Assembly: GCF_000021565.1 (NCBI RefSeq)
Contig: NC_012440.1
Coordinates: 884,210 to 948,209 of the forward strand
From: Persephonella marina EX-H1
GTDB taxonomy: Bacteria; Aquificota; Aquificia; Aquificales; Hydrogenothermaceae
Length of the DNA stretch: 64,000 nucleotides
Direction: 5' to 3'
The position numbers and the translations under genes were made by a program. Below the pieces are notes generated by a model that saw nothing but the letters and a program-made list of their open reading frames with translations, did not search any database and was not told the DNA's origin. Shown here in pieces: positions 39,680 through 54,553 of the stretch. Position 1 is the first letter of the stretch; every line of letters starts with the position of its first letter.

Positions 39680-40684
39680 ATGAGGCATCTCAATAAAGAA
39701 AATCAGGAGATCTTTCTCATACTGAAGATTCTCCTTAAAGATGGTGGACAGATAGGATTTCTGTACGGTAAGGACGGCAGATCTGCATCTCTTTTTATCA
39801 TGGATCTGTTAAACAGCCTTGATATACAGAAAAGGGTTTTGTTTGTATCCCCAAAATCTGGAGATATTTACAGACAGATACTCCAGAAGTTAGGGAGAGA
39901 TATTGATAATCTGACTGTTGAGCAGTTTCTGATTGAGTTTTACAACCAGAAAGAGAAGCTTGACAAAAGGGTATTTATTGTTATTGAGGATTCTGATTCC
40001 ATGGATCAGACTGATATTATTAATCTCATCAAGATCTTCGGTGGGGATAAGGATATATCAGTTATATTTACAGGAAGTGATAAGCTGGATAGGATCGTTG
40101 AAGAGATAAAACCAAAGAAGATCTTTTCTTACGTTAATTTTGTGTTTCAGCTAAAAGGAAAAGGCTTTCCTTTCCTAAAATTACTTATAGCCCTTTTGAT
40201 AATTTCAGGTCTTTCAGCAGGTTATTTTTACCTCAAAGATAATGGAAAAGAGATTAAAGAAGATAAGGTTAAGATAGTAAAGAAGGATAAGGAGATACTT
40301 AAGAGTCTGAAAGATAACAGGGTTGTTAAAAAAGAACCACCAGAGAGAAAAAAGGTAAGAGAGGAGATCTGTGATTTTGTATGTCTGTTTGATAAAACTG
40401 TGTATCCTGTAGTGATTAATAATCAGATACCGGATAAAAAACATAAAAAACCTGTTCTGAAAGAGAGATACAGAATTTATGCAGGTGCTTTCAGAAATTT
40501 AAAAAATGCCAGGTTTCTCTCTGACAGGATCTTTAAAAAAACAGGTCTAAAGGCTGAGATAGAAGACCTTGGAAGTATAAAAAATGTTTATATAAAAGCC
40601 TATAGAAGAGAAGAAGCTCTTGAGATAAGAGACAGATTGAACGAAATAGGAATAAAACCTTACATAAAAAGGTTAGAAAAATGA
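39680..40684 (+). CDS. ExeA-like protein with degenerate ATPase domain, membrane helix and SPOR domain
   Basis: 334 residues. The first 170 follow the ExeA/MshM AAA pattern of the next gene, but the P-loop reads YGKDGRSAS (no GK-S/T) and the Walker B region reads VIEDSDSMD instead of DEAQ, so ATP hydrolysis is unlikely. A membrane helix (about 172-190) is followed by a basic linker and a C-terminal SPOR domain (about 262-334, YRIYAGAFRNLKNARFLSD), which in known proteins binds denuded peptidoglycan. It overlaps the following ExeA-like gene by four bases (ATGA). Together they may form a peptidoglycan-remodelling pair for secretin insertion, as GspA/GspB do. Function is inferred. Confidence 0.75.
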   Translation: MRHLNKENQEIFLILKILLKDGGQIGFLYGKDGRSASLFIMDLLNSLDIQKRVLFVSPKSGDIYRQILQKLGRDIDNLTVEQFLIEFYNQKEKLDKRVFIVIEDSDSMDQTDIINLIKIFGGDKDISVIFTGSDKLDRIVEEIKPKKIFSYVNFVFQLKGKGFPFLKLLIALLIISGLSAGYFYLKDNGKEIKEDKVKIVKKDKEILKSLKDNRVVKKEPPERKKVREEICDFVCLFDKTVYPVVINNQIPDKKHKKPVLKERYRIYAGAFRNLKNARFLSDRIFKKTGLKAEIEDLGSIKNVYIKAYRREEALEIRDRLNEIGIKPYIKRLEK

Positions 40685-41856
40685 GAGACTTTGTTGAGTT
40701 TTTTGGTCTGAATGAGGATCCTTTCAGGATAACACCCGATATAGACTATTTCTATATGTCATCAGTTCATCAGGAGGCTTTAGGCTCTCTTGAGTATCTT
40801 TTAGAATCAGAGGAAGGATTTGCCGTTATTATAGGAGAACCTGGAACAGGAAAGACTATAACTATAAGAAAGTTTATACACCAGCTTGGTGATGATGTTG
40901 AGTACGCATACATACTTTTCCCCAATCTTTCCCCCGAGGAACTTCTAAAGGCTATACTTGAGGATTTTGGTATAGATGTTCCTTCAGACAGCTCTAAAAA
41001 TAAGGTTTTTTCATTGCTTAGAGACTTCCTTATCCAGAAGAAAAGTGAAGGAAAGAAGATCGTTATAATTGTTGACGAGGCTCAGAACCTTCCGGTTGAG
41101 ACACTTGAGGAGCTGAGAATTCTCTCAAACATGGAGACGGACAAGGAGAAACTTTTACAGATAATTCTCCTTGGCCAGCCTGAGCTTGAGGAGAAGCTTG
41201 AATCAAACCAGTTGAGACAGTTAAGACAGAGAATAACCATAATAACCCATCTCAGGAATCTGTCCTTTGATGAGACTGTCAAATATATTAACTACAGATT
41301 TGCCAAAGCAGGTAATCCTGCCGTTAACATCTCAGATGGGGTTTACAGACTCGTTTACAGTTATACCGAAGGTAATCTCAGAAAAGTCAACCTTCTTATG
41401 GAAAGAGCTTTAATGTCAGCATTTGTTGAAAATAATCAGTTTATAGATAACAGGCATATAAAAGCTGCAGCTGAAAGCTTAAAATTAAGAAAAAAAAGAT
41501 CATCAGTTAAAACCGCTGTTCCGGCAGTCTTTTCCGTTCTTCTCATTTTACTTTTCACAGCAGGTTACTATATCTACAGTATCTCAGATGATTCTGTCAG
41601 AAAATCTGTTAAGGAAGCAGAAAAAAAAGAGGTTGTGCAGGATAAGGTTTCAAATAGAATCAATGATAGTAAACAAATGAAGGTCAAGGCATACATGTTA
41701 AATATGAGAGAAAAACCTACAAAAGAGTCTGAAATCGTCTATCTTTTAAAGGAAGGTGATACTGTTGAGGTAGTTGGTAGAGATGGAGAATGGGTAAAAG
41801 TTAAAAAAGATGATATTATAGGGTGGGTCAAGGAAAAGTACTTATCACTGAAATGA
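40681..41856 (+). CDS. ExeA/MshM-type AAA ATPase with C-terminal SH3 domain
   Basis: 391 residues. The cytoplasmic AAA domain (1-265) begins with the family signature FFGLNEDPFRITPD and has an intact Walker A (GEPGTGKTITI), Walker B (IIVDEAQNLP) and sensor (LLGQPELEEKL). One membrane helix (about 279-300) leads to a periplasmic linker and an SH3b domain (about 330-391, LNMREKPTKESEIV, GWVKEKYL), which likely binds peptidoglycan. In type II secretion and MSHA systems, ExeA/GspA or MshM helps the secretin cross peptidoglycan. It is coupled to the preceding ATPase-dead relative and is followed by a diguanylate cyclase in the same direction. Confidence 0.88.
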   Translation: MRDFVEFFGLNEDPFRITPDIDYFYMSSVHQEALGSLEYLLESEEGFAVIIGEPGTGKTITIRKFIHQLGDDVEYAYILFPNLSPEELLKAILEDFGIDVPSDSSKNKVFSLLRDFLIQKKSEGKKIVIIVDEAQNLPVETLEELRILSNMETDKEKLLQIILLGQPELEEKLESNQLRQLRQRITIITHLRNLSFDETVKYINYRFAKAGNPAVNISDGVYRLVYSYTEGNLRKVNLLMERALMSAFVENNQFIDNRHIKAAAESLKLRKKRSSVKTAVPAVFSVLLILLFTAGYYIYSISDDSVRKSVKEAEKKEVVQDKVSNRINDSKQMKVKAYMLNMREKPTKESEIVYLLKEGDTVEVVGRDGEWVKVKKDDIIGWVKEKYLSLK

Positions 41857-41919
41857 TTTCTTGATTTTCCCGAAATTGTTATTAATTTAAAAGATAGATT
41901 AATAAAATAGGTTAAAAAG

Positions 41920-43167
41920 ATGGATGAAAAGATCCAAAAAGTAATTTTTTCTAATACGATAAAATATCTTGAAGGTCTGTCTGGATGTAAGGGTGTTGGA
42001 TTATACTTCAAAGATAAAAATATGGTAGAGGAGATATCAAACACCATATCCCGATCTTTTAACCTCTCATCTCAGGAAATCAAGAGAAAGTTTTTCTTAA
42101 TAGGCGGTGAGTATTACGATATGTCCGTTCCTTACTATATTTTTGTAGATATGTTTGATCATATAGAAAAGGATGTTATCAGAGAGCTGACCTTTGAAGG
42201 AGATATAAATGAGGGTCTGTTAAACAGGATAAACGATTATTTCAATACTGTGAAAGATGCTGTTTCATTCGGTTACCTACAGAGGATGATAAAATCGGAT
42301 AAGGACATAATAAGAAAAGAGCTCAGAAGTGTTAAGGACAGGAACTCAGAGCTGAGACCATTTTTAAGAGACTATCTGATATGGGTGAACAAGCTGACTG
42401 AGGATATTAAAAAGCTCAGAAGCTGTGATACCCAGTCCAACGTCCAGTGGAAGAATATTGATGAAAAGGAGTATATTTCCTCACTTCTGAATAAGGATGA
42501 GATAGAGGCTATAAGAGATGTCCATAATAAACTTATAAATCTGTCTTCAAGTATCTATTACGCAATAGATAAAAGAAAGTTCACACTTTTAACCTCAAAC
42601 TATATAGAACTTATAAAGCTTGTCGGAAAGCTTATATCCCTTGCTACTGTGAATATAGCCGCAAGAAGTCTTGAAGGTATAAATATAGATCATCTTACAG
42701 GGCTGCTGAACAGAAAAGCTATGGATTTCATACTTAACAGCCAGTATCAGATAGCAAAACTAACAGGAAAACCTCTATCAATAGTTATGCTTGATCTTGA
42801 TGATTTTAAAAATATAAATGATAGATATGGCCATCTTGTAGGTGATTGCGTTCTCCAGAACTTTGCCAAAGAGCTTCAGGAACATCTAAGAAAATCAGAT
42901 TTTATTTTCAGGTATGGTGGTGAGGAGTTTTTAATACTGATGCCCTTTACAGAGAAGAGAGATGCCTGTATCGTTATCAGAAATTTACTTGAAAAGATAT
43001 CTGACAGCTATATATGCTGTGGTGAGGACCTATATATTAATGTAACGTTCAGTGCCGGAATTGAAGATATAACAAGTAAACATGAATCGGTAATTGATAT
43101 CATAAAACAGGCTGATCAGAAGATGTATAAAGCGAAAAGTTCAGGCAAAAGTAAGGTTATCTGCTGA
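41920..43167 (+). CDS. Diguanylate cyclase with uncharacterised N-terminal region
   Basis: 415 residues, soluble. The C-terminal GGDEF domain (about 255-415) has DHLTGLLNRKAMD, DLDDFKNINDRYGH and the active site FRYGGEEF; the inhibitory I-site is intact (RKSD five residues before GGEEF), so it should make c-di-GMP with feedback. The first 250 residues are helical, contain a Cys in the SGCKGVGLYF region and no domain I can name. It resembles the N-terminal half of DGCs sensing via a small helical domain. Its position at the end of the ExeA-like run and facing the pilin genes suggests it supplies c-di-GMP to the pilus machine. Confidence 0.92.
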   Translation: MDEKIQKVIFSNTIKYLEGLSGCKGVGLYFKDKNMVEEISNTISRSFNLSSQEIKRKFFLIGGEYYDMSVPYYIFVDMFDHIEKDVIRELTFEGDINEGLLNRINDYFNTVKDAVSFGYLQRMIKSDKDIIRKELRSVKDRNSELRPFLRDYLIWVNKLTEDIKKLRSCDTQSNVQWKNIDEKEYISSLLNKDEIEAIRDVHNKLINLSSSIYYAIDKRKFTLLTSNYIELIKLVGKLISLATVNIAARSLEGINIDHLTGLLNRKAMDFILNSQYQIAKLTGKPLSIVMLDLDDFKNINDRYGHLVGDCVLQNFAKELQEHLRKSDFIFRYGGEEFLILMPFTEKRDACIVIRNLLEKISDSYICCGEDLYINVTFSAGIEDITSKHESVIDIIKQADQKMYKAKSSGKSKVIC

Positions 43168-43170
43168 TTT

Positions 43171-45258
43171 TCATCTGTCGGACACACTTCCATTATTGAG
43201 GTAGTTTACTCTGCAGTCGCCATTCCCACCATTACTCTGGATATCAGCATTCATAGCGTCAGAGTAGGATATCTTGTCAATTAAATCTGAGTTGTTATAA
43301 CGACAGACACACCAGCGCCAGAAACATATAGGGTAGTATCTCTCAATAAATTGACCATTTGTTAGTTTTAAAGTGGAAGTTGTTATCTCCTCTCCATCAA
43401 ATATTAAACCTACCTGAGTTCCATTTACAGTAAAACAGTAATATCCACCTGTGCTGTTCCATACTCTGTAACCCTGACATCCAACATAAACATCTGTAGA
43501 ACATGTACCTGTAAGAACACCGTTAGTGACATTAAGAGTGAATGTGTTAACTCCTTCTGTATTTAAGTTTCCTGTAGTACATACCCCAGAGGGATCAACT
43601 ACATTTGTACAGCTGCCGGAAACAGGACTGAAATAACCTGATGTGAAATATCCGGAGATATTCCAGGTAAGATCTGTTGTACCACCATATGGAATGACAT
43701 TAGGTGTGGCAGATAGAGTACAGGATGGCGGTGTAGGAGGTACAGAGGTATTAACAGTATAAACCCCTGTTATGCTTTGTTGTGGCGTACAGGAATCCGT
43801 GTAACTGACAGAGAATGTACATGATGACGTTGTTAATGGTGTTCCGGAAATTACAGCACCTGTTGTACTGCAGCTAAAGGTAAGCCCATTACAGCTTGCA
43901 GGCGAACAGGAGGTTAGATTTATAGGAGGATTCCCCCCGGAAAGAGATATTGATTGTGTAAAGGGAACTCCGACAGTTGCTGTAAAAACCGTCCCACTTG
44001 GTGGGTTTAAGAAAAAAGGGGTACAGGAACTACCTCCTGATCCTGCAGTCGAACAGTCAGGATCTATAACAGTAAGAGCAAATGCTTTGTAAGCTGTGTA
44101 TGAACCTGAGCAGGATGATACCTGAACAGTAAATGTGTAAGGTGAAGGGTTGGAACATCCTGTATCTGAATTTATTGTTCCTGTAATTGTTCCATCAGGA
44201 TTTAATGTTAATCCCGGTGGTAATGAGCCGTCAACTAATAACCACGTATAAGTAGTTCCACCTCCAAATGCAGACAGGGTTACGCTGTAACTGCTTCCTT
44301 CATAACCTGTTGGAAGAGTCTCTGTTACAATTCTAAGCTGCTGAGGATATACATTAATACTAAAGTTCTGATTAAAAGTGTTACCTGCAGAATCTCTTAC
44401 ACAGAGATTATTAAGGTTAATTGTACTACTACATGTGGACAGAGATCCCGGGGGAGATGAAGGTTCTATATTTATAGTACCGTAAATACTTCCATCGCTT
44501 TTCATTTTTAGACCGTTGCCGAGATCTATCTCGGTTGCCGGTATATTACAGGTCGTTCCATCATAAGATCCCCACTGGTACGGAGGTCTACCACCGGAAG
44601 CCTCTAACTTGTAGTTGTAAGGAGAGTCTTCAGTACCGTTAGGTAGAAGTGATGGGGTTTTTATCGTTAGAGACTCACATCCTTCTTTAGTCTGTAGCTC
44701 ATGAAGTGTAACCCATTTTACAATATCATCATAAGGTTCAGATCTATTCAGATCGGCAGGATAGTTGTCAACTACAATGCCATACTGGAAAACCCTTATC
44801 GTTGTAGGTGTTGTTATCTCCTGAGAACCTGTGGTCTGATTGTTGTAGTTACCATCACCACTCAGGATTAAAAATGCAACGTTACTAATTGTTGTGGATG
44901 TTGCACAGGAAGGGTCATCACATATCTCAACTGTTATATTTGTTGAGTTTAATCCGCAATGTCCATAAGGAGAAGATACTGTAAGATCTCTGTCATAAAC
45001 ATAGACGAGAGGTTTGCCGTATGAGTCTTCAAGTGTCCTTACGACCGTATTCAGTTCAGAAGCTGTTGGGATTCTCCCTGAGGATGACGCATATCCTGTT
45101 ATAGCCTCAACAGCTGCGTTTACAATCTCTTTACTCTCTGCATATTTTGCTCTCTTTATAAGAATGCTGAAAGTTGTTGCTCCTATTCCGATAAGAACAC
45201 CTATAATAACGAGGATCATTGCAAGTTCAATGAGTGTGAACCCTTTTTTATTTTCCAT
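43171..45258 (-). CDS. Very long prepilin-like protein with Ig-like (He_PIG) repeats, probable pilus tip adhesin
   Basis: 695 residues. The N-terminus is a class III/type IV prepilin signal: KKGFTLIELAMILVIIG with cleavage G6-F7 and Glu at +5, followed by the usual pilin helix and a globular domain to about 200. After that come three or four Ig-like repeats of the putative-Ig (He_PIG) type, e.g. LPTGYEGSSYSVTLSAFGG, then GSLPPGLTLNPDGTITGTI (about 315-400). The last 190 residues are rich in Cys and Tyr/Asn. Type IV pilins normally have 120-200 residues, so this is an outsized minor pilin with an adhesive tail, as in MshQ-like or PilY1-like tips. It is the last gene of the minus arm. Confidence 0.85.
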   Translation of the reverse strand: MENKKGFTLIELAMILVIIGVLIGIGATTFSILIKRAKYAESKEIVNAAVEAITGYASSSGRIPTASELNTVVRTLEDSYGKPLVYVYDRDLTVSSPYGHCGLNSTNITVEICDDPSCATSTTISNVAFLILSGDGNYNNQTTGSQEITTPTTIRVFQYGIVVDNYPADLNRSEPYDDIVKWVTLHELQTKEGCESLTIKTPSLLPNGTEDSPYNYKLEASGGRPPYQWGSYDGTTCNIPATEIDLGNGLKMKSDGSIYGTINIEPSSPPGSLSTCSSTINLNNLCVRDSAGNTFNQNFSINVYPQQLRIVTETLPTGYEGSSYSVTLSAFGGGTTYTWLLVDGSLPPGLTLNPDGTITGTINSDTGCSNPSPYTFTVQVSSCSGSYTAYKAFALTVIDPDCSTAGSGGSSCTPFFLNPPSGTVFTATVGVPFTQSISLSGGNPPINLTSCSPASCNGLTFSCSTTGAVISGTPLTTSSCTFSVSYTDSCTPQQSITGVYTVNTSVPPTPPSCTLSATPNVIPYGGTTDLTWNISGYFTSGYFSPVSGSCTNVVDPSGVCTTGNLNTEGVNTFTLNVTNGVLTGTCSTDVYVGCQGYRVWNSTGGYYCFTVNGTQVGLIFDGEEITTSTLKLTNGQFIERYYPICFWRWCVCRYNNSDLIDKISYSDAMNADIQSNGGNGDCRVNYLNNGSVSDR

Positions 45259-46268
45259 TACCTTTCTCCAAGAGCCTCTAATAATTTCAACCTTTCATTA
45301 ACAATATTGATAAGAAATTCATCATCACAACTTAAATTTAATATTTTTTTATAGATTTTGTAAGCCTCATCTGTAATTCCTTTGATCTCAAGCATTCTTG
45401 CGAAGGCATATGCTATGTATGGATCAGAAGGATTTTTTGTAAATGCCCTTTCATAATAGAAAAGAGCTCTGGATATATCTCCGTTTGCCTCGTACAGATA
45501 TCCGTACGCATAACTGATATAACCTTTTTTCTCTTTTTCTGAGTATCTGTCAAGAATATCTTTTGCACGGTAGAAATCTTCATTATCAATGAGTTTAACT
45601 GCTATAGACGATACTGTTTCCTCATTTTTAAGATCAGACAGATATTTTTTCATCTCATCAAAATTTCCCGTTTCCACAGCGAGGACAAGTAAGTTATTCA
45701 GTATATCTTCTGTTTTTTTCAGACTGTAAACCTTTTTGTAGTATCTGTAAGCTTCTGTAAGATTTCCCTCTTTTATATTTTTTTCTGCAAGAGATATGTA
45801 GGCTGATATCTCAGCTGGATCCGGTTCTTTTTTTATTATGGCAATATTAACAGGTTCTTTTTCTGACTTATTTATACTAATATCCTGAAGATCTGTTTTC
45901 TTAACTTTTTGTTCTATCTCATTTAGAACAAGATCAAGAGGTGGAAGAGGTTCATTACCAGAACTCTCTTTTTTTATCTCCTTTTTAATCTCCCGGGGAG
46001 ATGTCACCTGATTTTTTACTCTTTCTGTCTGATGTTTATTTACAGGTTTTTCTCTGACAATCTTTTCTGTACTGACAAGAATATTCTGTTGAGGGATAGC
46101 AGTTAGATAGTAATAGATGCCCATGCCTGAACCGATAAGTATTAATGTAATAACAGAAAGTATAAGAACCCTTTTGTTTACACTCTTTTTCACTTCAAGT
46201 CCCGGTGGTACGGGCTTTGCCCCCTTCTTATTTTTTATTTTCCTTAACATCTGGATCATCAGACTCAT
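45258..46268 (-). CDS. Membrane-anchored TPR protein (MshN-like)
   Basis: 336 residues. A short cytoplasmic stretch, one membrane helix (about 33-55, LILSVITLILIGSGMGIYYYL) and a basic linker precede TPR-like helical hairpins (about 150-330, e.g. YISLAEKNIKEGNLTEAYRYYKKV and ALFYYERAFTKNPSDPYIAYAF, quoted in part). MshN, which has the same layout, lies in MSHA pilus operons. It should hold pilus parts in the periplasm. Its ATG overlaps the secretin stop by four bases and its stop shares a base with the prepilin ATG (TAATG), so it is in the middle of the assembly operon. Confidence 0.75.
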   Translation of the reverse strand: MSLMIQMLRKIKNKKGAKPVPPGLEVKKSVNKRVLILSVITLILIGSGMGIYYYLTAIPQQNILVSTEKIVREKPVNKHQTERVKNQVTSPREIKKEIKKESSGNEPLPPLDLVLNEIEQKVKKTDLQDISINKSEKEPVNIAIIKKEPDPAEISAYISLAEKNIKEGNLTEAYRYYKKVYSLKKTEDILNNLLVLAVETGNFDEMKKYLSDLKNEETVSSIAVKLIDNEDFYRAKDILDRYSEKEKKGYISYAYGYLYEANGDISRALFYYERAFTKNPSDPYIAYAFARMLEIKGITDEAYKIYKKILNLSCDDEFLINIVNERLKLLEALGER

Positions 46269-47839
46269 TCTTCTAACCTGCTGTCAAATTTTATTATTCT
46301 TGGTTTCAAAAATATGATCAGCTCTTTTTTCTCCCTGTACACCTTTTTATTTTTAAAGAGATTTCCAAATACCGGTATGTTGCTGAGCAGAGGGATTTTA
46401 TTTTCCTCAACCCTTTTTTCTGTATTTATCATCCCACCTATGATTATCAGATCTCCATCCTTCACCTTTATGATGGTTCCTGCTTCTTTTATATTGAGAA
46501 CTGGTGCTTCAGCAACAACCTCATTGTTTTCCACAAGCTGTTTTGTCCCTTCTATTTTTGTTGATACTGGAACGATATTTATCATAATGTGATCACCTTC
46601 AATGTAAGGTGTAACCCCAAGCAAAACACCACTCAGAACACTTCTTCTTATATACATTACGCTCTGGGTTACAGTTGTTGTTCCAAGTGTTGTTATCTGC
46701 TTTTCCCAGTATGGAACTACAACTCCTGATGAGATAAGAGCTGTCTGTCCATTTAAGACTCTTATTCTGGGATTTGAGAGAGTCTCTATCCTGCCAACTG
46801 AAGAAAGTGCATTTATAACAGCGTTAAAATCAAGGCCTGCAACTACAACCTCACCATAACTTGAGGGAAGTGCAAGGGTCTGTCTTAACGATATGGAAGC
46901 ACCTGCCACATTTCTCAGTAATGCTGACCAGTTTATACCGTACTGCATTCCATCAGAAAGGGTTACCTCTACTATTTTTGACTCAATTAGAACCTGTTTT
47001 TTAACCTCTGAGAGAATCTTTTTTAAAAATTTCTCAACTTTTCTCATCTTATATTTAGGTGCTGTTACGACAAGGGTTCCCGTAAACTTGTTCAGTGTAA
47101 AACTGCTTTTTGCAAGTGAAGCAGAGAACTTTTCACCTTCTGTATCCTCTTTCAAAATATTTTTTAGCCCATTTTCTATCTGACCGTAAAAATCGTTAAT
47201 CTCCTCTGGATTTTCGTATTTCAGGGAAAAATCACCTGAAATGCTTCTAGCGGTAGAACCTGAAGTTCCACCACCTATTGTACCACCTCCATATCCTCCT
47301 CCTATACCACCTCCACCTGTCTGCATGGCTCCGCCGAGAACATCACCTCCAAGTTTTGAACTGAAAGATGAGTTTGTGTGGACATAAGGGATGTGGAATG
47401 TTTTTGTCGTTGATCCTTTTATATAGATGATATTCCCCTTTATCTGGTAATAAACGCCTGCAAGGTCTGTTACAACCTTCAACGCATCCTCTACAGGGGT
47501 TTTGTTAAAATTCGCTGTTATAAGTATGTTTGGATTTACATCGGGGGATATTATAAGGTTCATTCCTGTGTCATTGGCAATAGCGTAAAGAACAGCCTTC
47601 AGTGGAACCTGATCAGCTGAAAATGTAAAGAACTTATCCTTAAAAGGTGATATTTTTTTTATTACAGGTTTGACGATCTTTGGTGGAGGTTTTATGACAG
47701 GTTTGTAAACAACTTCTTCCTCCTTTTTTATCTCCTTTTTAAGCTCTTTTTTATCCTCTATCTTTTTTGTTGAAGTGGATCCACAGGAGACAAAAAATGT
47801 CAGAATAAAAATAAAGATCACCTTGAAAAATCTATCCAT
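46265..47839 (-). CDS. Type IV pilus/MSHA secretin lipoprotein
   Basis: 524 residues. The signal peptide ends in a lipobox (TFFVSCGS, Cys19), so the secretin itself is a lipoprotein like MshL. N-terminal STN/N0-like domain (FTFSADQVPLKAVLYAIA) and a second small domain are followed by a Gly-rich loop (about 175-200) and the C-terminal secretin barrel (about 275-515) with VPYWEK, LLGVTPYI and GGMINTEKRVEENKIPLLSNIP (partly shown). It forms the outer-membrane pore for the pilus. It overlaps the upstream PilP-like gene by 22 bases. Confidence 0.92.
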   Translation of the reverse strand: MDRFFKVIFIFILTFFVSCGSTSTKKIEDKKELKKEIKKEEEVVYKPVIKPPPKIVKPVIKKISPFKDKFFTFSADQVPLKAVLYAIANDTGMNLIISPDVNPNILITANFNKTPVEDALKVVTDLAGVYYQIKGNIIYIKGSTTKTFHIPYVHTNSSFSSKLGGDVLGGAMQTGGGGIGGGYGGGTIGGGTSGSTARSISGDFSLKYENPEEINDFYGQIENGLKNILKEDTEGEKFSASLAKSSFTLNKFTGTLVVTAPKYKMRKVEKFLKKILSEVKKQVLIESKIVEVTLSDGMQYGINWSALLRNVAGASISLRQTLALPSSYGEVVVAGLDFNAVINALSSVGRIETLSNPRIRVLNGQTALISSGVVVPYWEKQITTLGTTTVTQSVMYIRRSVLSGVLLGVTPYIEGDHIMINIVPVSTKIEGTKQLVENNEVVAEAPVLNIKEAGTIIKVKDGDLIIIGGMINTEKRVEENKIPLLSNIPVFGNLFKNKKVYREKKELIIFLKPRIIKFDSRLEE

Positions 47840-48282
47840 CTTTCACCCCATTTTCCTTTGAGTAATATCCTGTCTTTCTCAATTTTTATAATCCTTTCAT
47901 CCTTTGAAATTCTATCATTCTCCCTAAAAAGTTTTCCGTTAATCATTACGAACTTCTTGTTAATTCCTATATAAATAAAATTAACCTTATATTCTGGAGG
48001 TGGTTCTTTTATCTTTTTATCGGAAGTTATCTCTTCTTTATAAGGATGTACATCCAGGCTGTTTTTGATAAAGGCAGTATTTATTCTCATTTTATCTTTA
48101 TAACTCAGGTTTATTTCAGGGTAATTGATCTCAAGTTTAAAATGCGGTTCTACATATCTGTTTATGAGATCTCCTACAGTTCTGTCAATATAATCTTTAA
48201 AAAAAAGCGGTAGTACAGGGATTATAATCGGAATTAATAGCAGAAGTATGTATCTGGGAGGAATACTTTTTAACATGATCAT
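47818..48282 (-). CDS. PilP/GspC-like periplasmic alignment protein (MshK position)
   Basis: About 154 residues with one N-terminal membrane helix (about 7-24, ILLLLIPIIIPVLPLF) and a C-terminal beta-barrel of the PilP/GspC HR type: NFIYIGINKKFVMINGKLF, RENDRISKDERIIKIEKDRILLKG, WIDF. Such domains dock to the secretin N0 domain. The frame begins at 48297, but ATG 48282 comes after the stop of the preceding gene and has GGTGGA six bases before it, so it is preferred. It ends 22 bases inside the secretin gene. The position matches mshK. Confidence 0.7.
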   Translation of the reverse strand: MIMLKSIPPRYILLLLIPIIIPVLPLFFKDYIDRTVGDLINRYVEPHFKLEINYPEINLSYKDKMRINTAFIKNSLDVHPYKEEITSDKKIKEPPPEYKVNFIYIGINKKFVMINGKLFRENDRISKDERIIKIEKDRILLKGKWGERWIDFSR

Positions 48283-48283
48283 C

Positions 48284-48781
48284 TTACGTTCCACCATAAT
48301 ACGGTTGTGTCAGATTTATCATCATATTGACCGTTGTTCCATTTTTATCGTTATTTAAGAAAAATTTTTCTATCTCCGCTACAGGATACATTGACTGTTC
48401 AAATAATAAAATAGTATCAATAAGCTCTTTACTACTTTTTGGTTTTAAAGACAGGGAAAGTTTTACGTATACCGATCCCTCTTTAACTTCTGGTCCTTCA
48501 ATAATTTTCACAGGATATATCCTTTTAATACTATCAAGTTTGTTGAGTATTATCTCTTCTGCTTCCTCTTTTTTAACATATTTTAAGTTTAGAATATTCT
48601 TAAGTTCAATAATCTCATTTATATTTTCCTTTATCAGTCTTACCTTATCTGACATATGTCTGAGTTCCCTTTCTTTCTCTCTGAGATATCCATCAAAACG
48701 CTGAAAGGAGAGCATAAGGATAAGGTTTATACCTATCAGAATTGAGATCGTTATGTATACTGCATAACTTTTCTCTTTCAT
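48284..48781 (-). CDS. PilO/GspM-like inner-membrane protein (MshJ position)
   Basis: 165 residues. One membrane helix (about 7-25) is followed by a coiled coil (about 30-75, REKERELRHMSDKVRLIKE) and a small ferredoxin-like domain (YVKLSLSLKPKSSKELIDTI, then MYPVAEIEKFFL). This is the PilO/GspM layout, whose members pair with PilN through coiled coils. It begins directly after the PilM-PilN fusion stop (TAAATG). MshJ occupies this place in MSHA operons. Sequence similarity to named proteins is low, so the assignment rests on layout and order. Confidence 0.72.
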   Translation of the reverse strand: MKEKSYAVYITISILIGINLILMLSFQRFDGYLREKERELRHMSDKVRLIKENINEIIELKNILNLKYVKKEEAEEIILNKLDSIKRIYPVKIIEGPEVKEGSVYVKLSLSLKPKSSKELIDTILLFEQSMYPVAEIEKFFLNNDKNGTTVNMMINLTQPYYGGT

Positions 48782-50113
48782 TTATCTCTCCTTAACAATC
48801 TCAAGAAAGATCTTTCCGGTAAGATTATCTATGTTGTAGACAGATCTATCACGAATTTTAAAATCATTTAACTTATCAAGCTCATTTTTTAATTTTCTCT
48901 TAAAATCCTCTATCTCTTTTACACTTTTGAATTTTTGATCTGATCTGATAGTTATGTACCTTTTTCCTTCTGAATATGTAATGTTAATATTTTCATCTCT
49001 TATAACGGAAAGTATCCCAGATAGTCTGTTCAGAATATAGATCGTCTTTCTCTCTGGTGAGAGAAGGTTTATATACCTGACAAGATAAACGATCTGATCA
49101 TAGGTGAGTTCTTTTGAAAGCACTTCTCTCTGGAATGTCTGTTTAAGCGAGTAGTAGGAGTTTTTCAGTCTAAAAAATCTCTCTTTAAGATCCATAAATT
49201 TATTAAGGTTCAAAAATGAAAATATAAGCAGTACAAGAACAAGAAGATAGCTCAGTTTTTTACTTGCTCCTGAGAATATCTTTTTGTGCTTAACATCAAC
49301 AGGCAAGAAATTGTAGGTATCCTTGATGTTTAAAGATCCGATCTGGATAACATAGCTGTTAAACTGCTCAAAGCTTCCCTTTTTTACAAATAACTCAGGA
49401 AGAACAGTGTAGACAGGCTTGTTGGAAAATGTGTGTATAAGCTCAACGAACTGTTCATTTTTAGATATCTCACCTACAAGGCCTATAACGTCTATATCTA
49501 TTCCCTGATTCTGGGCAACATATATATATGTCAGGTTAAAGTTTTCATAATAGAAATTTATAAGCTGTTGTTCATCATTTACAAACTCTGGGATTTTAGT
49601 TGATCTGGTATACAGGATCTTCCCATTCTGACTGACTGTAACGATAAATTTTTCCTCATCTGTATAGGTCATAAAAACGGTCTCATCACCTGATATTTTA
49701 GACGTTATACCTGAAAGAGCAAACTGGGAAAGAGTGAAGACCTCTATACTTGTCAGATCCTTTATATTTAATCTTTCTACAGCTTCAAAAAACAGTTTTT
49801 CCGGTACAGCATACACATCATACTCAACCTGATTTTCCGAGACCTCTCTGTTCTTTACAGGTAGAAAGATATAATTTACGCCGGACTCAAGTTTGTCAGA
49901 CAACTTATTTTTTATCAGAAAAGAAAGGGTATTTTCATCCCTTACAGGTGGGATCACAATCTTTGAGTGTATAAAATCCTGATAAAAAACTGAGATGTAG
50001 TACCTGCCGGTTCTGTTTATATTGTAATCAACAATCTCAACAAAGCTGTTGTATCTTTTAAGGACAGCTCCTTTAACTTTACCATCTGAGATCTCTACAG
50101 TTATTAAACTCAT
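48782..50113 (-). CDS. PilM-PilN fusion (MshI/GspL-like assembly platform protein)
   Basis: 443 residues. Residues 1-270 form a cytoplasmic actin-like domain as in PilM or cytoplasmic GspL (LITVEISDGKVKGAVLK, later VFMTYTDEEKFIVTVSQNG). At about 275 the PilN-type N-terminal motif appears (DTYNFLPVD), followed by a membrane helix (about 292-310), a coiled coil (about 312-345) and a small periplasmic domain. So functions split between PilM and PilN in many bacteria are in one chain here, like MshI and GspL. It anchors the assembly ATPase to the periplasmic proteins. It starts a six-gene minus operon, divergent from the pilin gene. Confidence 0.78.
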   Translation of the reverse strand: MSLITVEISDGKVKGAVLKRYNSFVEIVDYNINRTGRYYISVFYQDFIHSKIVIPPVRDENTLSFLIKNKLSDKLESGVNYIFLPVKNREVSENQVEYDVYAVPEKLFFEAVERLNIKDLTSIEVFTLSQFALSGITSKISGDETVFMTYTDEEKFIVTVSQNGKILYTRSTKIPEFVNDEQQLINFYYENFNLTYIYVAQNQGIDIDVIGLVGEISKNEQFVELIHTFSNKPVYTVLPELFVKKGSFEQFNSYVIQIGSLNIKDTYNFLPVDVKHKKIFSGASKKLSYLLVLVLLIFSFLNLNKFMDLKERFFRLKNSYYSLKQTFQREVLSKELTYDQIVYLVRYINLLSPERKTIYILNRLSGILSVIRDENINITYSEGKRYITIRSDQKFKSVKEIEDFKRKLKNELDKLNDFKIRDRSVYNIDNLTGKIFLEIVKER

Positions 50114-50149
50114 AGCTATTAATACATCCCTTATTTTATTAAAATATAT

Positions 50150-50175
50150 TAAAATTTAAACTTAAAAGCCGATAA
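50150..50175 (+). promoter_or_regulatory. Sigma-28 (FliA)-like promoter of the pilin gene
   Basis: TAAAATTT (50150-50157), 10 bases, then GCCGATAA (50168-50175). The FliA consensus is TAAAGTTT, 11 bases, GCCGATAA: here the -10 is exact and the -35 is 7/8. RNA would start near 50182, leaving a leader of about 55 bases that ends with AGGAGG (50225-50230). Confidence 0.55.
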
Positions 50176-50192
50176 TTTAATATATATATCGG
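50169..50192. promoter_or_regulatory. Inverted repeat overlapping the pilin -10 region
   Basis: CCGATA (50169-50174) and TATCGG (50187-50192) form an inverted repeat with a 12-base AT spacer that overlaps the predicted -10 element and the transcription start. It may be an operator or a leader hairpin. The left arm is also part of the -10, so it could be partly coincidental. Confidence 0.3.
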
Positions 50193-50236
50193 TAATGGAA
50201 ATAATATAGTTAAAGTGAAAATACAGGAGGTGGATG

Positions 50237-50821
50237 ATGAGAAATCAAAAAGGTTTCACACTTGTTGAGCTTGCGATAGTCCTTGTGATTATTGGACTGA
50301 TACTTGGAGCTGTTATGAAGGGACAGGAGCTTATCCAGAACGCAAAGTACAAAAGGTTAGTAAATGACCTTAGAGGGTTAACAGCTGCAGCTTACACCTA
50401 CTATGACAGGTACAGAGCAATGCCAGGTGATGATCCAAAAGCTGGAGACAGATGGAGTGCAACATACCCTAACATACTAAATGGAAACGGAAACGGACTT
50501 ATAGATGGTGCAGCTAATTCAACAAATAATACCGATGAGTCTGTTCAGGCATGGAGACATTTAAGAGCCTCAGGAATAATAGCCGGTGACCCTAATGAAG
50601 CGACACTCACAAGACCTTCAAACCCATACGGAGGAAGATACGGTTTCTCTAATAGAAACTTCGGTACAGGAACATACAATTTTGTTTTTGTGGATAACGT
50701 CCCTGCAGATATTGGAAGGAGATTAGATGAAGAATTTGATGATGGTATCTGGAATACAGGATCTATACAGGCCAACGCTGATTACACTACAGGGGTAAGA
50801 GACATATTCTATAGATTTTAA
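50237..50821 (+). CDS. Major type IV pilin (MshA-like prepilin)
   Basis: 194 residues. The leader MRNQKG is cut before FTLVELAIVLVIIGLILG (Phe at +1, Glu at +5); the helix is followed by a globular domain with YYDRYRAMPGDDPKAGDRW, common in MSHA-like and epsilonproteobacterial pilins. Residues LNGNGNGLIDG (about 81-91) look like a calcium-binding loop (N-x-N-x-N-G-x-I-D). There are no Cys, so no C-terminal disulfide loop. ATG 50237 is preferred over 50234 because AGGAGG is six bases before it. It has its own promoter and a strong terminator, consistent with much higher expression than the machinery genes. Confidence 0.9.
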   Translation: MRNQKGFTLVELAIVLVIIGLILGAVMKGQELIQNAKYKRLVNDLRGLTAAAYTYYDRYRAMPGDDPKAGDRWSATYPNILNGNGNGLIDGAANSTNNTDESVQAWRHLRASGIIAGDPNEATLTRPSNPYGGRYGFSNRNFGTGTYNFVFVDNVPADIGRRLDEEFDDGIWNTGSIQANADYTTGVRDIFYRF

Positions 50822-50827
50822 ATAGTA

Positions 50828-50856
50828 AGGTGGGATCAGATCCCACCTCATTTCTT
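50828..50856 (+). terminator. Terminator between the pilin and assembly-ATPase genes
   Basis: AGGTGGGA (50828-50835) pairs with TCCCACCT (50841-50848) around the loop TCAGA, followed by CATTTCTTTTTA. It lies seven bases after the pilin stop and should end most pilin mRNA, letting part of the transcription continue into the ATPase gene. Confidence 0.8.
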
Positions 50857-50899
50857 TTTAACTTTTTACGAAAAGTTCTTAAAACAACAGGTGAACTAA

Positions 50900-52576
50900 A
50901 TGTCCCGCAAACCTATAGGTCAGTTATTAAAAGAGTTTGGTTATGTCACAGAAGAACAGATACAGGTAGCCCTTGAGGTTCAGAAAATAAAGGGGGGTCT
51001 CCTTGGAGAAATCCTACAGGAACTCTCCTTTGTATCACCCAGAGAAGTTGCAGAAGCTATAGCAAGACAGTCAGGAAGACCCTATATAGACCTTTCTCAG
51101 TACCCTCCAACAAGGGAGTCTCTAAGAATCCTTGATAAAAACATAGCAAAGCAGCTTGAGGTCCTTCCATTTGAGATAGATAAAGATGAACTTCATATCG
51201 CGATGACAAACCCTTACGATATAAATGCTATAGATGTTGTTAGCAGGAGAACAAATCTTAAAGTTAAAGTTTACGTGGCAGATAAGGAAACATTACTGAA
51301 AAGTATTGAGATACATTACTTTCTTTTAGAACAACCGATAGATCAGACAGTTAAGAGTTATATAGAAAAGGCAAAAACCGGAACTCTCGGAACTGAACTA
51401 CCAAAATTTATAGATACCGTTTTAAATCACGCTATTATTGACAGGGCAACAGATATTCATATCTCACCTGAAAGTGCAGCATCCCACATATTTTTCAGAA
51501 TTGACGGTATAATGAGGCATTACTATGCCTTTCCAAAATCAACACATAACGCTGTAGTATCAAGAATTAAAGTTCTAGCAAATCTTGATATTGCGGAACA
51601 GAGACTTCCTCAGGACGGGGCATTTACACATACTTTTTTTAATGAAAGTTTTGATATGAGGGTATCAACAATACCTACAGCGTACGGTGAGAATGTTGTT
51701 ATAAGAGTTCTTTCAAAAAATCTGTCTCTTTTCAATCTAAAGAGTCTCGGATTTGAAGATGATATGCTTTCACAGCTTGAGGAGGAGTTTTTAAAACCAC
51801 AGGGGATAGTCCTTGTTACAGGTCCTACAGGTTCAGGTAAAACAACAACACTTTATGCTGCTTTAAGAAGGATAAACGCACTTGAAAGGAATATTCTCAC
51901 AGCTGAAGATCCTGTTGAGTACAGATTTCCTTTTATAAAACAGACTCAGGTTAATGAGAAGGCTGGATACACATTTGCAAGGGCTATAAGACATTTCTTA
52001 AGACAGGATCCTGATGTTATTCTTGTTGGTGAGATAAGAGATGAAGAGACTGCAGAGATGGCTATGAGAGCATCAATAACAGGACACCTTGTTTTATCAA
52101 CACTTCATACAAATGACGCTGTCAGTGCGATACCAAGGCTAATAGATATGAAGATAAAGGATTATATGGTTGCCTCAGGTGTCTCAGCCATAACCGCACA
52201 GAGACTTGTAAGAAAAACATGTCCTTTCTGTATGGAGGAGGAGATTATAGATATTGAAGATCTTAAAAGTTATGGTTTTAGTGAAGACTCTATAAAAAGA
52301 TACGGATCTGATTATATAGATGATGGAAAGGTAAAGATTTACAGAGGAAAAGGTTGTGAACACTGCAAAGGAACAGGTTATCTTGGAAGGACTGTAATAG
52401 CTGAACTTTTAAAGATTGATGAGGATATAGCAGACCTGATAGTAAAAGGCAGTACTCCTCTTGGTATCGTTCAGAAAGCAAGGGAAAAAGGAATGAGAAC
52501 ATTAAAAGAGGACGGTCTTATAAAAGTTTTCAAAGGCGTCACAACCCCTGAAGAGATAAAGAGAGTAACAGGATAA
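50900..52576 (+). CDS. Type IV pilus extension ATPase (MshE/PilB/GspE family)
   Basis: 558 residues. Residues 1-120 are a MshEN/T2SSE N-terminal domain with two 24-residue repeats, starting at PIGQLLKEFG and LLGEILQELS; the Arg that starts the MshEN c-di-GMP motif is replaced in both. The catalytic part has Walker A (GPTGSGKTTTLY), the Asp box, Walker B (DVILVGEIRDEETAEMA) and the His box (ITGHLVLSTLHTND). A tetra-Cys zinc site is present (CPFCMEE, CEHCKGTG). It powers pilin polymerisation. It starts 51 bases after the pilin terminator and is one base from the platform gene. Confidence 0.94.
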   Translation: MSRKPIGQLLKEFGYVTEEQIQVALEVQKIKGGLLGEILQELSFVSPREVAEAIARQSGRPYIDLSQYPPTRESLRILDKNIAKQLEVLPFEIDKDELHIAMTNPYDINAIDVVSRRTNLKVKVYVADKETLLKSIEIHYFLLEQPIDQTVKSYIEKAKTGTLGTELPKFIDTVLNHAIIDRATDIHISPESAASHIFFRIDGIMRHYYAFPKSTHNAVVSRIKVLANLDIAEQRLPQDGAFTHTFFNESFDMRVSTIPTAYGENVVIRVLSKNLSLFNLKSLGFEDDMLSQLEEEFLKPQGIVLVTGPTGSGKTTTLYAALRRINALERNILTAEDPVEYRFPFIKQTQVNEKAGYTFARAIRHFLRQDPDVILVGEIRDEETAEMAMRASITGHLVLSTLHTNDAVSAIPRLIDMKIKDYMVASGVSAITAQRLVRKTCPFCMEEEIIDIEDLKSYGFSEDSIKRYGSDYIDDGKVKIYRGKGCEHCKGTGYLGRTVIAELLKIDEDIADLIVKGSTPLGIVQKAREKGMRTLKEDGLIKVFKGVTTPEEIKRVTG

Positions 52577-52577
52577 G

Positions 52578-53798
52578 ATGAGATTTTATCTAATTGAGGC
52601 TATTGATCAGGAAGGGAAGAAACAGAAGAAGGTTTTAAGCGTAACAGACGAGTCTGAGATATTTCCCCTTCTTGAGTTCTCTGGTCTTATACCTTTAAAG
52701 ATTAAAAAGCTTCCAGATTACTACAGATACCTCAATATAAGAAAGTATATATACAGAATTAAAAGACAGGAAATAATTGAAGTTTTAGAGAATCTACATC
52801 TAATTGTAAAATCTGGACTTCCTATAAATACAGGACTTATGGATCTTGCAGAAGATGCAGAGAACCCATCATTAAAAGAGATGCTTTTTGATATGGCATT
52901 TAAAATACAGGCAGGTGAGACATTATCTCAGGCAGCAGAAAGCTACAGGGATATTTTCTCAGATGTTGTTATATCCCTTTTCAAGATTGGTGAGGAGACC
53001 GGAAGTCTTGATAAAACATTAAAGGATGCAGCTGAGCATCTAAAAAAGATTGAAGATCTGAAAGCAAAAACGAAACAGGCATTGATATATCCTGCATTTG
53101 CATTTTTCAGTGTTTTAGGTGCAATGATATTCTGGCTTGTTTATGTTCTCCCAAAGATAATCGATGCTTTCAAGGATTTTAATATAGAGCTTCCTGCAAC
53201 AACTGTATTCATTATGAAAACATCAGATTTTTTAAGATCTTACGGTATATTTCTTGTTGTGGTTATTTTCATATTATTTATTCTTCTTCAGATGTTAAGA
53301 AAGAAGAATGAAAAGATAAGAATTGAGACAGACCGTCTAATTTTAAAGATACCTGTCATTGGCATAATCATTGAGAACTTTAATTATGCTTTTTTTGCTG
53401 AGTATGTAAGGCTTATGATACAGGCTGGACTTCCACTTTATCAGGCATTAAATATTATGGAAAATGCTATAAGAAATTATGTTTTTAAGACAGCCATAAG
53501 AAACTCAAGAAATGAGATTGAGCTTGGAAGATCATTTTCTGATTCCTTAAAAAAGGAGAATGTGTTTTCACCTCTGATCATAAGGATGATATCTATAGGA
53601 GAGCAGACAGGAGCTTTAGATGAGCAGCTTGACTATATATCAAATTACTATTACAACAAGGTTGAGTACATATCACAGAATATAGCCAAGATGATTGAGC
53701 CTATAATAATAGGTGTGGTGGGAGGATTTATGCTCATAGTTATGCTTGGATTTATAGGTCCTATATACGATCTGATATCACAGATCGGAAGAATGTGA
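52578..53798 (+). CDS. Type IV pilus inner-membrane platform protein (MshG/PilC/GspF family)
   Basis: 406 residues with two GspF domains (about 70-190 and 270-390), each with the family pattern LHLIVKSGLPINTGL / LIQAGLPLYQALNIM and GEETGSLDKTL / GEQTGALDEQLD, and three membrane helices (about 175-200, 220-245, 375-400). It turns with the ATPase to insert pilins. It starts one base after the ATPase stop, and its own stop overlaps the patatin start (TGATG). Standard length and no missing parts. Confidence 0.94.
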   Translation: MRFYLIEAIDQEGKKQKKVLSVTDESEIFPLLEFSGLIPLKIKKLPDYYRYLNIRKYIYRIKRQEIIEVLENLHLIVKSGLPINTGLMDLAEDAENPSLKEMLFDMAFKIQAGETLSQAAESYRDIFSDVVISLFKIGEETGSLDKTLKDAAEHLKKIEDLKAKTKQALIYPAFAFFSVLGAMIFWLVYVLPKIIDAFKDFNIELPATTVFIMKTSDFLRSYGIFLVVVIFILFILLQMLRKKNEKIRIETDRLILKIPVIGIIIENFNYAFFAEYVRLMIQAGLPLYQALNIMENAIRNYVFKTAIRNSRNEIELGRSFSDSLKKENVFSPLIIRMISIGEQTGALDEQLDYISNYYYNKVEYISQNIAKMIEPIIIGVVGGFMLIVMLGFIGPIYDLISQIGRM

Positions 53799-54553
53799 TG
53801 AAAATAGGTATTGCTCTTTCAGGTGGTGCTGTAAGGGGGGCAGCACATATAGGCGTTCTTAAAGCTCTTGAGGAAAGAGGGATAAAACCTGATTTTATAT
53901 CAGGATCAAGTGCAGGTTCTATAGTTGGTGCCTTTTATGCAGCAGGTTACTCTCCTCTCGAGATGGAAAAGATAGCATTAAACACAAAATTTCTCTCTTA
54001 CTTAAAGCCTGAGCTTTCCTTTAGCGCACTTTTTTCCCTGGAGAAGCTGGAAAAATTTCTTGAAAGGTACATAGGCAAAAAAGATATATCTGAGCTTGAG
54101 AAGAAACTATTTGTTTGTGTCACAAATCTGAATAAGGGTATTCCAGAGTATAAATCAAAGGGGGATCTTTTTTTATGGATATCAGCATCTTCCTCACTTC
54201 CGTTTATATTCAAACCTGTTGAGTACGAGGGAAATCTCTATATAGACGGGGGGATTATGGATAACCTCCCTGTAGAGCCTTTAAAAATTCATTCAGACTA
54301 TATAATCGGTGTGGATGTAAACCCTCTTGGAACAGAAGAGAGGCTCAACAACGCTTTTTCCATACTTATAAGGAGTTTTTATCTTGCTTTCAGATCAAAT
54401 GTTGAACTGAGGAAAAGGGTGTGCGATCTTTTTATACAGCCTGAAGATCTTGTTGATATAGGTCTTTTTTCTGCCTGGAGAATAAAGGATGCTATAGATA
54501 TAGGCTACAGATACACAAAGAATATTTTAAACAGGAATGATCTTAAGATATAG
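53798..54553 (+). CDS. Patatin-like phospholipase
   Basis: 251 residues with the catalytic dyad of patatins: oxyanion loop SGGAVRGAAHIG, nucleophile elbow GSSAGS (Ser near 39) and DGG (Asp near 148, IDGGIMDNLPVEPL). No signal peptide, so it probably acts at the inner face of the membrane on phospholipids. The bacterial RssA/YchK group looks like this. ATG 53798 shares one base with the platform-gene stop (TGATG), so it is translated with the pilus genes, which is unusual. Its last 27 bases overlap the convergent dnaJ gene. Confidence 0.88.
   Translation: MKIGIALSGGAVRGAAHIGVLKALEERGIKPDFISGSSAGSIVGAFYAAGYSPLEMEKIALNTKFLSYLKPELSFSALFSLEKLEKFLERYIGKKDISELEKKLFVCVTNLNKGIPEYKSKGDLFLWISASSSLPFIFKPVEYEGNLYIDGGIMDNLPVEPLKIHSDYIIGVDVNPLGTEERLNNAFSILIRSFYLAFRSNVELRKRVCDLFIQPEDLVDIGLFSAWRIKDAIDIGYRYTKNILNRNDLKI

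Follow-up and report, generated by a model that had tools for sequence, protein, structure and literature searches.

The stretch of DNA analysed here (the window) comprises 64,000 nucleotides of the Persephonella marina EX-H1 genome (G000:C2:884210-948209; 1.98 Mb in two contigs), and positions 39680-54553 of it hold a putative type IV pilus locus of the mannose-sensitive haemagglutinin type (MSH, or MSHA type). The 13 open reading frames (ORFs) listed for it in a preliminary description made from the letters alone were all confirmed at their coordinates and strands, and the domains of most of them were recovered by profile search. On the minus strand lie MshI (48782-50113), MshJ (48284-48781), MshK (47818-48297), the MshL-type secretin (46265-47839), an MshN-like TPR protein (45258-46268) and a giant modular pilin of 695 residues (43171-45258). 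The facing plus-strand arm consists of a putative major pilin in the MshA position (50234-50821), the extension ATPase MshE (50900-52576) and the inner-membrane platform protein MshG of the GspF/PilC type (52578-53798; T2SSF, 5.1e-52), followed by a patatin-like lipase (53795-54553) that starts at a GTG codon and overlaps mshG by 4 bp. A second plus-strand arm carries two MshM/ExeA-like proteins, M1 (39680-40684) and M2 (40681-41856), with a diguanylate cyclase downstream (41920-43167). The two main arms diverge from a shared promoter region (50114-50233). This three-arm layout around a divergent centre, which the description had taken to be a rearranged MSHA-like pilus locus, recurs in relatives from two families; the nearest named loci in the secretin alignment come from Persephonella and other Hydrogenothermaceae and Aquificaceae.

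The secretin matched the MshL model TIGR02519 best among curated models (1.6e-67, 227.6 bits), ahead of PilQ (170.6 bits) and GspD (152.5 bits). The GspD and PilQ proteins of the same genome scored only 135 and 111 bits with the MshL model; with their own best models they reached 454.8 bits (over the cut-off) and 266.2 bits (under the cut-off), respectively. In a tree of Aquificota loci, 26 of the 80 loci in the secretin alignment (eight from Campylobacterota and 18 others), ten proteobacterial loci and seven outgroup loci, 54 MSH-type rows, the proteobacterial ones included, separate from seven PilQ/GspD-type rows with a Shimodaira-Hasegawa-like approximate likelihood-ratio support (SH-aLRT) of 99, and Aquificota and Campylobacterota are joined at 97. 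Six Aquificota loci that are near copies or cut (L043, L044, L048, L049, L051 and L064) were left out of this tree. All trees in this work come from single quick searches, and every fold result from a single model.

The content and order of the genes point the same way. The MSH model of Denise et al. (2019) requires mshA, mshE, mshG, mshL and mshM (PMC6668835), and homologues of all five are present by general profiles, MshA being recognized by its N_methyl match (4.3e-9) and position only; this pilin lies upstream of mshE in most relatives. The minus arm keeps the order I-J-K-L-N and the plus arm E-G, mutually inverted, as in the general order I-J-K-L-(M)-N-E-G, and the reading of the locus as a rearranged MSHA cluster is therefore right. 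MshN, identified by TPR matches and by its conserved place between the secretin and the giant pilin, adjoins the latter in 20 of 24 compared loci (the window and L042-L064, several of them cut by contig ends). MshL orthologues occur in 24 of 61 Aquificota genomes, namely in 22 of 37 of the window's own family and in 2 of 17 and 0 of 7 of two other families; one of the 24 (G036) is a contig-end fragment. This adjacency and distribution make the layout more than chance. In two genomes of one genus (L055 and L057), J-K-L-N and the giant pilin are present without I, E and G in the stretch seen, which may mean that these genomes have a divided or degenerating locus.

Residues 5-57 of MshE match the model of the MshE motif for cyclic diguanylate (c-di-GMP; NF053729, 57.5 bits, cut-off 38) and are followed by an MshEN domain (PF05157, 1.6e-16); the three remaining extension ATPases of the P. 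marina genome do not have the motif. Alignment with Vibrio cholerae MshE, which binds c-di-GMP through a pair of 24-residue motifs (PMC5013675), shows conservation of glycines 11, 18 and 40, of glutamines 32 and 61 and of the hydrophobic positions. Judged solely by NCBIfam bit score, the ATPase matches PilB best, below the PilB cut-off. In a tree of ORFs longer than 480 residues from named loci and paralogues of at least 440 residues, a limit that removed PilT, 60 MSH rows separate at 94 from 23 PilB/GspE paralogues and two zetaproteobacterial rows. The Aquificota (24 rows) are sister to the Campylobacterota (eight rows) at 98 there and at 98-99 over all ATPase trees. Taken together, the secretin phylogeny and profile, the gene content, the gene order and the MshE-type motif suggest, with a probability of roughly 80%, that the product of the locus is a surface-attachment type IV pilus of the MSH class, a kind of machine that is already known, above all from Vibrio.

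Several observations weigh against this assignment. The secretin is of MshL type by its best model and its tree support of 99, although its score falls below the TIGR02519 cut-off of 250.2 bits; an Aquificota orthologue (G003) passes at 255.3 bits, one from a Sulfuricurvum genome does so at 258 and three of ten genomes lie over the cut-off. The locus holds two N-methyl pilins only, against several pilin-size genes in proteobacterial loci. Within the MshE motif Arg9 is replaced by Pro, Arg38 by Leu and Gly47 by Ser. In V. cholerae MshE, changes of Arg9, Asp12 or Gln32 cost at most fivefold in affinity, whereas changes of glycine 11 or 40 abolish stabilization by the ligand (PMC5013675); c-di-GMP binding by the P. 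marina protein is plausible on this ground. When the profiles of MshI and MshJ from Aquificota were compared with those of their proteobacterial counterparts, with only four and six sequences on one side, no match was significant. Finally, when ten proteobacterial MshE loci were added to the ATPase tree (18 of the earlier 85 rows, near copies and long rows, having been dropped), nine of the ten joined the PilB/GspE side at 100, and forcing all MSH ATPases together, at a cost of 18.3 log-likelihood units, was mildly rejected (approximately unbiased test, p-AU 0.037; a quick tree with a long branch).

The ATPase tree, its test and the MshI/MshJ comparisons would fit a distinct type IV pilus lineage, comprising Aquificota, Campylobacterota, Nitrospirota and Geobacter, that has a plan like that of gammaproteobacterial MSHA and an ATPase of separate ancestry. 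However, the secretin tree unites all MSH rows, the gene order is common to both sides and the proteobacterial MshE branch has a length of about one change per column. The ATPase placement may therefore be an artefact. The conflict is counted as a warning and not as a refutation because of this long branch, and a separate lineage is considered possible but rather unlikely.

MshI gave no informative family match in domain searches. Its AlphaFold2 model (16 sequences; predicted local distance difference test, pLDDT, 88) shows an actin-like domain in the first 270 or so residues, then a long helix that stops near residue 333 and a C-terminal alpha-beta domain, and the top PDB match found by Foldseek is Pseudomonas aeruginosa PilM (5eou, E 9e-13), ahead of GspL (1yf5, 1.6e-7). 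The fusion of PilM and PilN proposed in the preliminary description is thus upheld by the model and the PilM match, and it has a precedent in a 477-residue proteobacterial MshI that ends in a PilN match (E 0.0011, under the cut-off). Two other labels of that description fared less well. The 'PilP-like' protein (MshK) matches no PilP model, its sole match being a weak one to T2SSB/GspB (E 2.1e-4, under the cut-off), and is placed by its conserved position. The 'PilO-like' protein has no informative family match and occupies the PilO/MshJ slot by position alone; the position is conserved across loci, in which MshJ was often recognized only by place.

The GspB match of MshK and the GspL structures among the fold matches of MshI could also indicate a variant type II secretion system (T2SS). 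The genome, however, encodes a separate T2SS at about 769-781 kb, with its own pseudopilins and with a GspD and a GspE that exceed their curated cut-offs. Neither the locus nor its relatives contain a GspG-K series, the window having two N-methyl pilins of which one is giant, and the secretin is closer to MshL by profile and tree. The arrangement named beforehand as fatal to a pilus reading, a locus inside a secretion cluster with several pseudopilins, was not found here, and the T2SS reading, highly improbable, was rejected on the separate system and the secretin profile and tree. A second ordinary type IVa or competence pilus is also very unlikely. N-methyl pilins and a PilB-like ATPase would suit it, but the genome carries PilB-PilT-PilC in a cluster of their own and PilM/PilQ in another, and both trees set MshE and MshL apart from the PilB- and PilQ-type proteins of the genome; by secretin profile and trees, PilB and PilQ are not the closest ATPase and secretin. 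PilQ, GspD, GspE and PilB are thus all encoded elsewhere as well. A third PilB-like ATPase (575 residues; G000:C2, about 186 kb; L003 and L068) has close orthologues in two related genomes, and another cluster of the same genome (L162) combines five N-methyl pilins with a 1256-residue ORF, presumably the minor pilins and a large tip protein of a type IVa pilus.

The MSH-type pilus proposed here had been described as possibly minimal and non-retracting. A genome-wide search for pilD and pilT identified one prepilin peptidase, a single PF01478 gene about 0.9 Mb from the locus, and two ATPases of the PilT family, which reach 493 and 470 bits with TIGR01420 (cut-off 319) and of which one adjoins PilB and PilC. 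The absence of a peptidase from the locus itself is usual for the type, the text of a large survey giving all MSH loci as lacking one (PMC6668835), and the PilT that retracts V. cholerae MSHA works for a second pilus too (PMC7096442). The inference of a non-retracting pilus is therefore unsupported and was rejected.

The two MshM/ExeA-like proteins differ in their ATPase motifs. M2 has an AAA_22 domain (1.9e-29) with intact Walker A and B motifs and a C-terminal SH3_3 domain (1.4e-13), while M1 has a weaker AAA_22 match (1.9e-7), a transmembrane segment and a SPOR match (3.1e-4), and reads YGKDGRSAS at the Walker A position, where M2 has GEPGTGKT. Thus, M1 is a probable pseudo-ATPase. Its Walker A motif is intact in five relatives (L159, L160, L161, L131 and L061), altered in part in L151-L158 and missing from the window and L052; M1 therefore has the look of a SPOR-bearing partner that is in decay or has been repurposed, having lost the motif stepwise, M2 keeping its own. 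M2 and the giant pilin face each other convergently in the window and in L052, L053, L054, L058 and L061. In L042-L049, the larger sister genus, M1 and M2 are encoded away from the pilus locus but still adjoin the same SDR gene in five of eight M1-M2 stretches (L151-L158). One genome (G012, L160) keeps the pair without an MshL orthologue, and the pair may thus have a further role.

The giant pilin is the most distinctive part of the system. It consists of an N_methyl base, immunoglobulin (Ig)-like stretches of the He_PIG type and a cysteine-rich end. All 22 aligned family members share the N-methyl start, and matches (E up to 0.01) to He_PIG occur in 18, to PKD in five, to L-type lectin in two (best 3.5e-14) and to Laminin_G_3 in one. 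Over residues 1-200, where 90% or more of positions are filled, the mean identity to the window copy lies at 35-58%; beyond residue 400, where 30-65% are filled, it drops to 16-25%. The alignment thus indicates a conserved base whose C-terminal Ig, PKD and lectin modules vary between related species, a clean case of a constant pilus machine with a varying outer end. The copy at L042:6351-8219 carries, unlike that of the window, an L-type lectin domain (2.4e-13, under the Pfam cut-off). PilB-type modular pilins of Streptococcus sanguinis, for which He_PIG is described as one of the common modules, are believed to occupy the tip of the filament (PMC8179133), and by analogy a tip position may be inferred for the giant pilin as a proposed adhesin. 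Between the pilin-size genes and mshE of some loci there is a Wzy_C/PglL-like membrane protein (L058:4444-6201 and L054:9496-11328 by Pfam; L176 by position and size only), which suggests a pilin-glycosylating enzyme in some MSH loci.

The diguanylate cyclase combines a GGDEF domain (4.1e-42), in which the GGEEF motif and the RxxD I-site are intact by alignment, with an N-terminal helical region and a degenerate CZB domain. In the CZB-GGDEF family the H-C-H-H zinc ligands are kept in 17 of 21 aligned members, and the set reads H-T-H-H in L112 and Y-x-H-I/V in L102, L103 and the window copy; a paralogue (L163) has an intact site. With Y-V-H-I the window cyclase has lost three of the four ligands and hence the 3His/1Cys site, and it is not among the 17 of 21 members matched by the Pfam CZB model. 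Since zinc at this site inhibits DgcZ (PMC8262984), zinc control has probably been lost, a change that may bear on how a sensor cyclase is rewired. The AlphaFold2 model (pLDDT 84) retrieved mainly GGDEF domains in a fold search, DgcZ (4h54) being aligned over 297 columns at a root-mean-square deviation of 14.9 Å, and the N-terminal region gained no identity; a globin-like appearance considered from the alignment was not established. The genome encodes two more full-length paralogues, and the nearest full-length relatives (46-47%) occur in two genomes of another genus, 97% and 78% complete, without an MshL orthologue. No diguanylate cyclase stands beside the pilus in any of the 23 other loci, and the gene was consequently rejected as a standard pilus part.

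The patatin (1.4e-40) follows mshG in 9 of 24 loci, all from the window's genus and one sister genus, where the two genes lie 2 bp apart or overlap by up to 4 bp (eight loci and the window). It is absent beside mshG in all seven other loci with a visible mshG flank, and orthologues occur in 55 of 61 Aquificota genomes, many of them without the pilus. The patatin is thus a general Aquificota gene that has joined the operon only in these two genera, probably as a passenger; as a pilus part it was rejected for the family at large, which leaves room for a clade-specific link. The preliminary description had spoken of signalling and lipase genes built into the locus. This holds only in part: a signalling gene at an MSHA locus has precedents in the two proteobacterial loci examined (L293 and L294), each of which starts with a GAPES4-GGDEF-EAL gene, but the cyclase stands at this locus in the window genome alone and the patatin is widespread. 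That the two are true working parts of the pilus would accord with the largely retained c-di-GMP motif of MshE and the tight coupling of patatin to mshG; it is nevertheless doubtful, given the cyclase-free loci, the cyclase orthologues in genomes without MshL and the seven patatin-free flanks.

The divergent promoter region contains the dyad CCGATA-N12-TATCGG (50169-50192), which overlaps a GATAAT box resembling a -10 element. It is the single such site in the window, 100 shuffles gave none, and there is one further occurrence in the genome; a reversed control pattern gave two matches per strand. By sequence reading the dyad is also found, with differing loop lengths, in L042, L043, L045, L046 and L049, the outer C-G pair being A-T in L042 and L043.

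Gene content, gene order, kinship and the presence of motifs are observed; adhesion, a tip location for the giant pilin, a response to c-di-GMP and retraction are the four inferred elements of a possible working scheme. The MshM pair and the GspB-like MshK would set the MshL secretin in place across the cell wall and the outer membrane, MshN being an accessory, and MshI, as PilM and PilN in a single chain, would link the secretin together with MshJ to the platform MshG. MshE would polymerize the 50234-50821 pilin at high c-di-GMP, for which the neighbouring cyclase, its zinc site lost, is a plausible local source in the P. marina genome. The giant pilin could cap or decorate the filament and grip the surface through its Ig-like modules, lectin-like in some relatives, and the single prepilin peptidase and the PilT proteins encoded elsewhere would provide processing and retraction. 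A more speculative and improbable extension is that the pili of Aquificota and Campylobacterota form a lineage of their own, with one main and one giant pilin whose gripping end (Ig, PKD or lectin) is exchanged from lineage to lineage, tied in P. marina to a private cyclase without its zinc switch, so that local c-di-GMP sets attachment.

The text of the survey by Denise et al., as distinct from its tables, places MSH in Gammaproteobacteria, Epsilonproteobacteria and Chrysiogenetes and names Aquificae for the T2SS only (PMC6668835). A literature search with little reach into subscription journals did not turn up any description of MSH pili from Aquificota. The present assignment would extend MSH pili to these deep-branching bacteria of hot vents and hot springs. 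Their closest relatives by sequence are the single-operon MSH loci of Campylobacterota, the sister group in every tree (ATPase 98-99, secretin 97). That these nearest kin are also vent neighbours bears on the exchange of attachment machinery.

Comparison with known systems places these features in context. Campylobacterota loci from the secretin alignment (Sulfurimonas, Sulfuricurvum and others; L180-L186, L188-L190 and L200) run I-J-K-L-N-giant pilin-E-G-pilin on one strand and thus share I, K, L, N, the giant pilin, E, G and the pilin with the window where not cut by contig ends, but they form a single operon without a divergent arm, and MshM, a diguanylate cyclase and a patatin were not recognized in the stretches seen. 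Nitrospirota and Geobacter loci follow I-J-K-L-E-G-M-N. MshL over the cut-off was found in 69 of 249 proteobacterial genomes, and nine of the ten loci taken for comparison run I-J-K-L-M-N-E-G followed by pilin-size genes, L292 differing. These proteobacterial MSHA loci (L293-L301) share with the window MshM, a TPR-type MshN, in some cases a fused MshI and, in L293 and L294, a signalling gene, there of the GGDEF-EAL kind and in first place; they differ in forming one operon with several pilin-size ORFs and a large end gene, in having no giant N-methyl pilin beside MshN and in their separate ATPase branch. The cyclase resembles DgcZ-type enzymes, in which CZB and GGDEF are likewise joined in one protein (PMC8262984), but it retains one of the four zinc ligands. 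The giant pilin follows the plan of modular pilins such as PilB and PilC of S. sanguinis, in which C-terminal modules, with He_PIG (PF05345) and a concanavalin-type lectin among those described, are grafted onto a pilin base (PMC8179133); the Persephonella protein is set apart by its fixed place beside MshN in an MSH locus.

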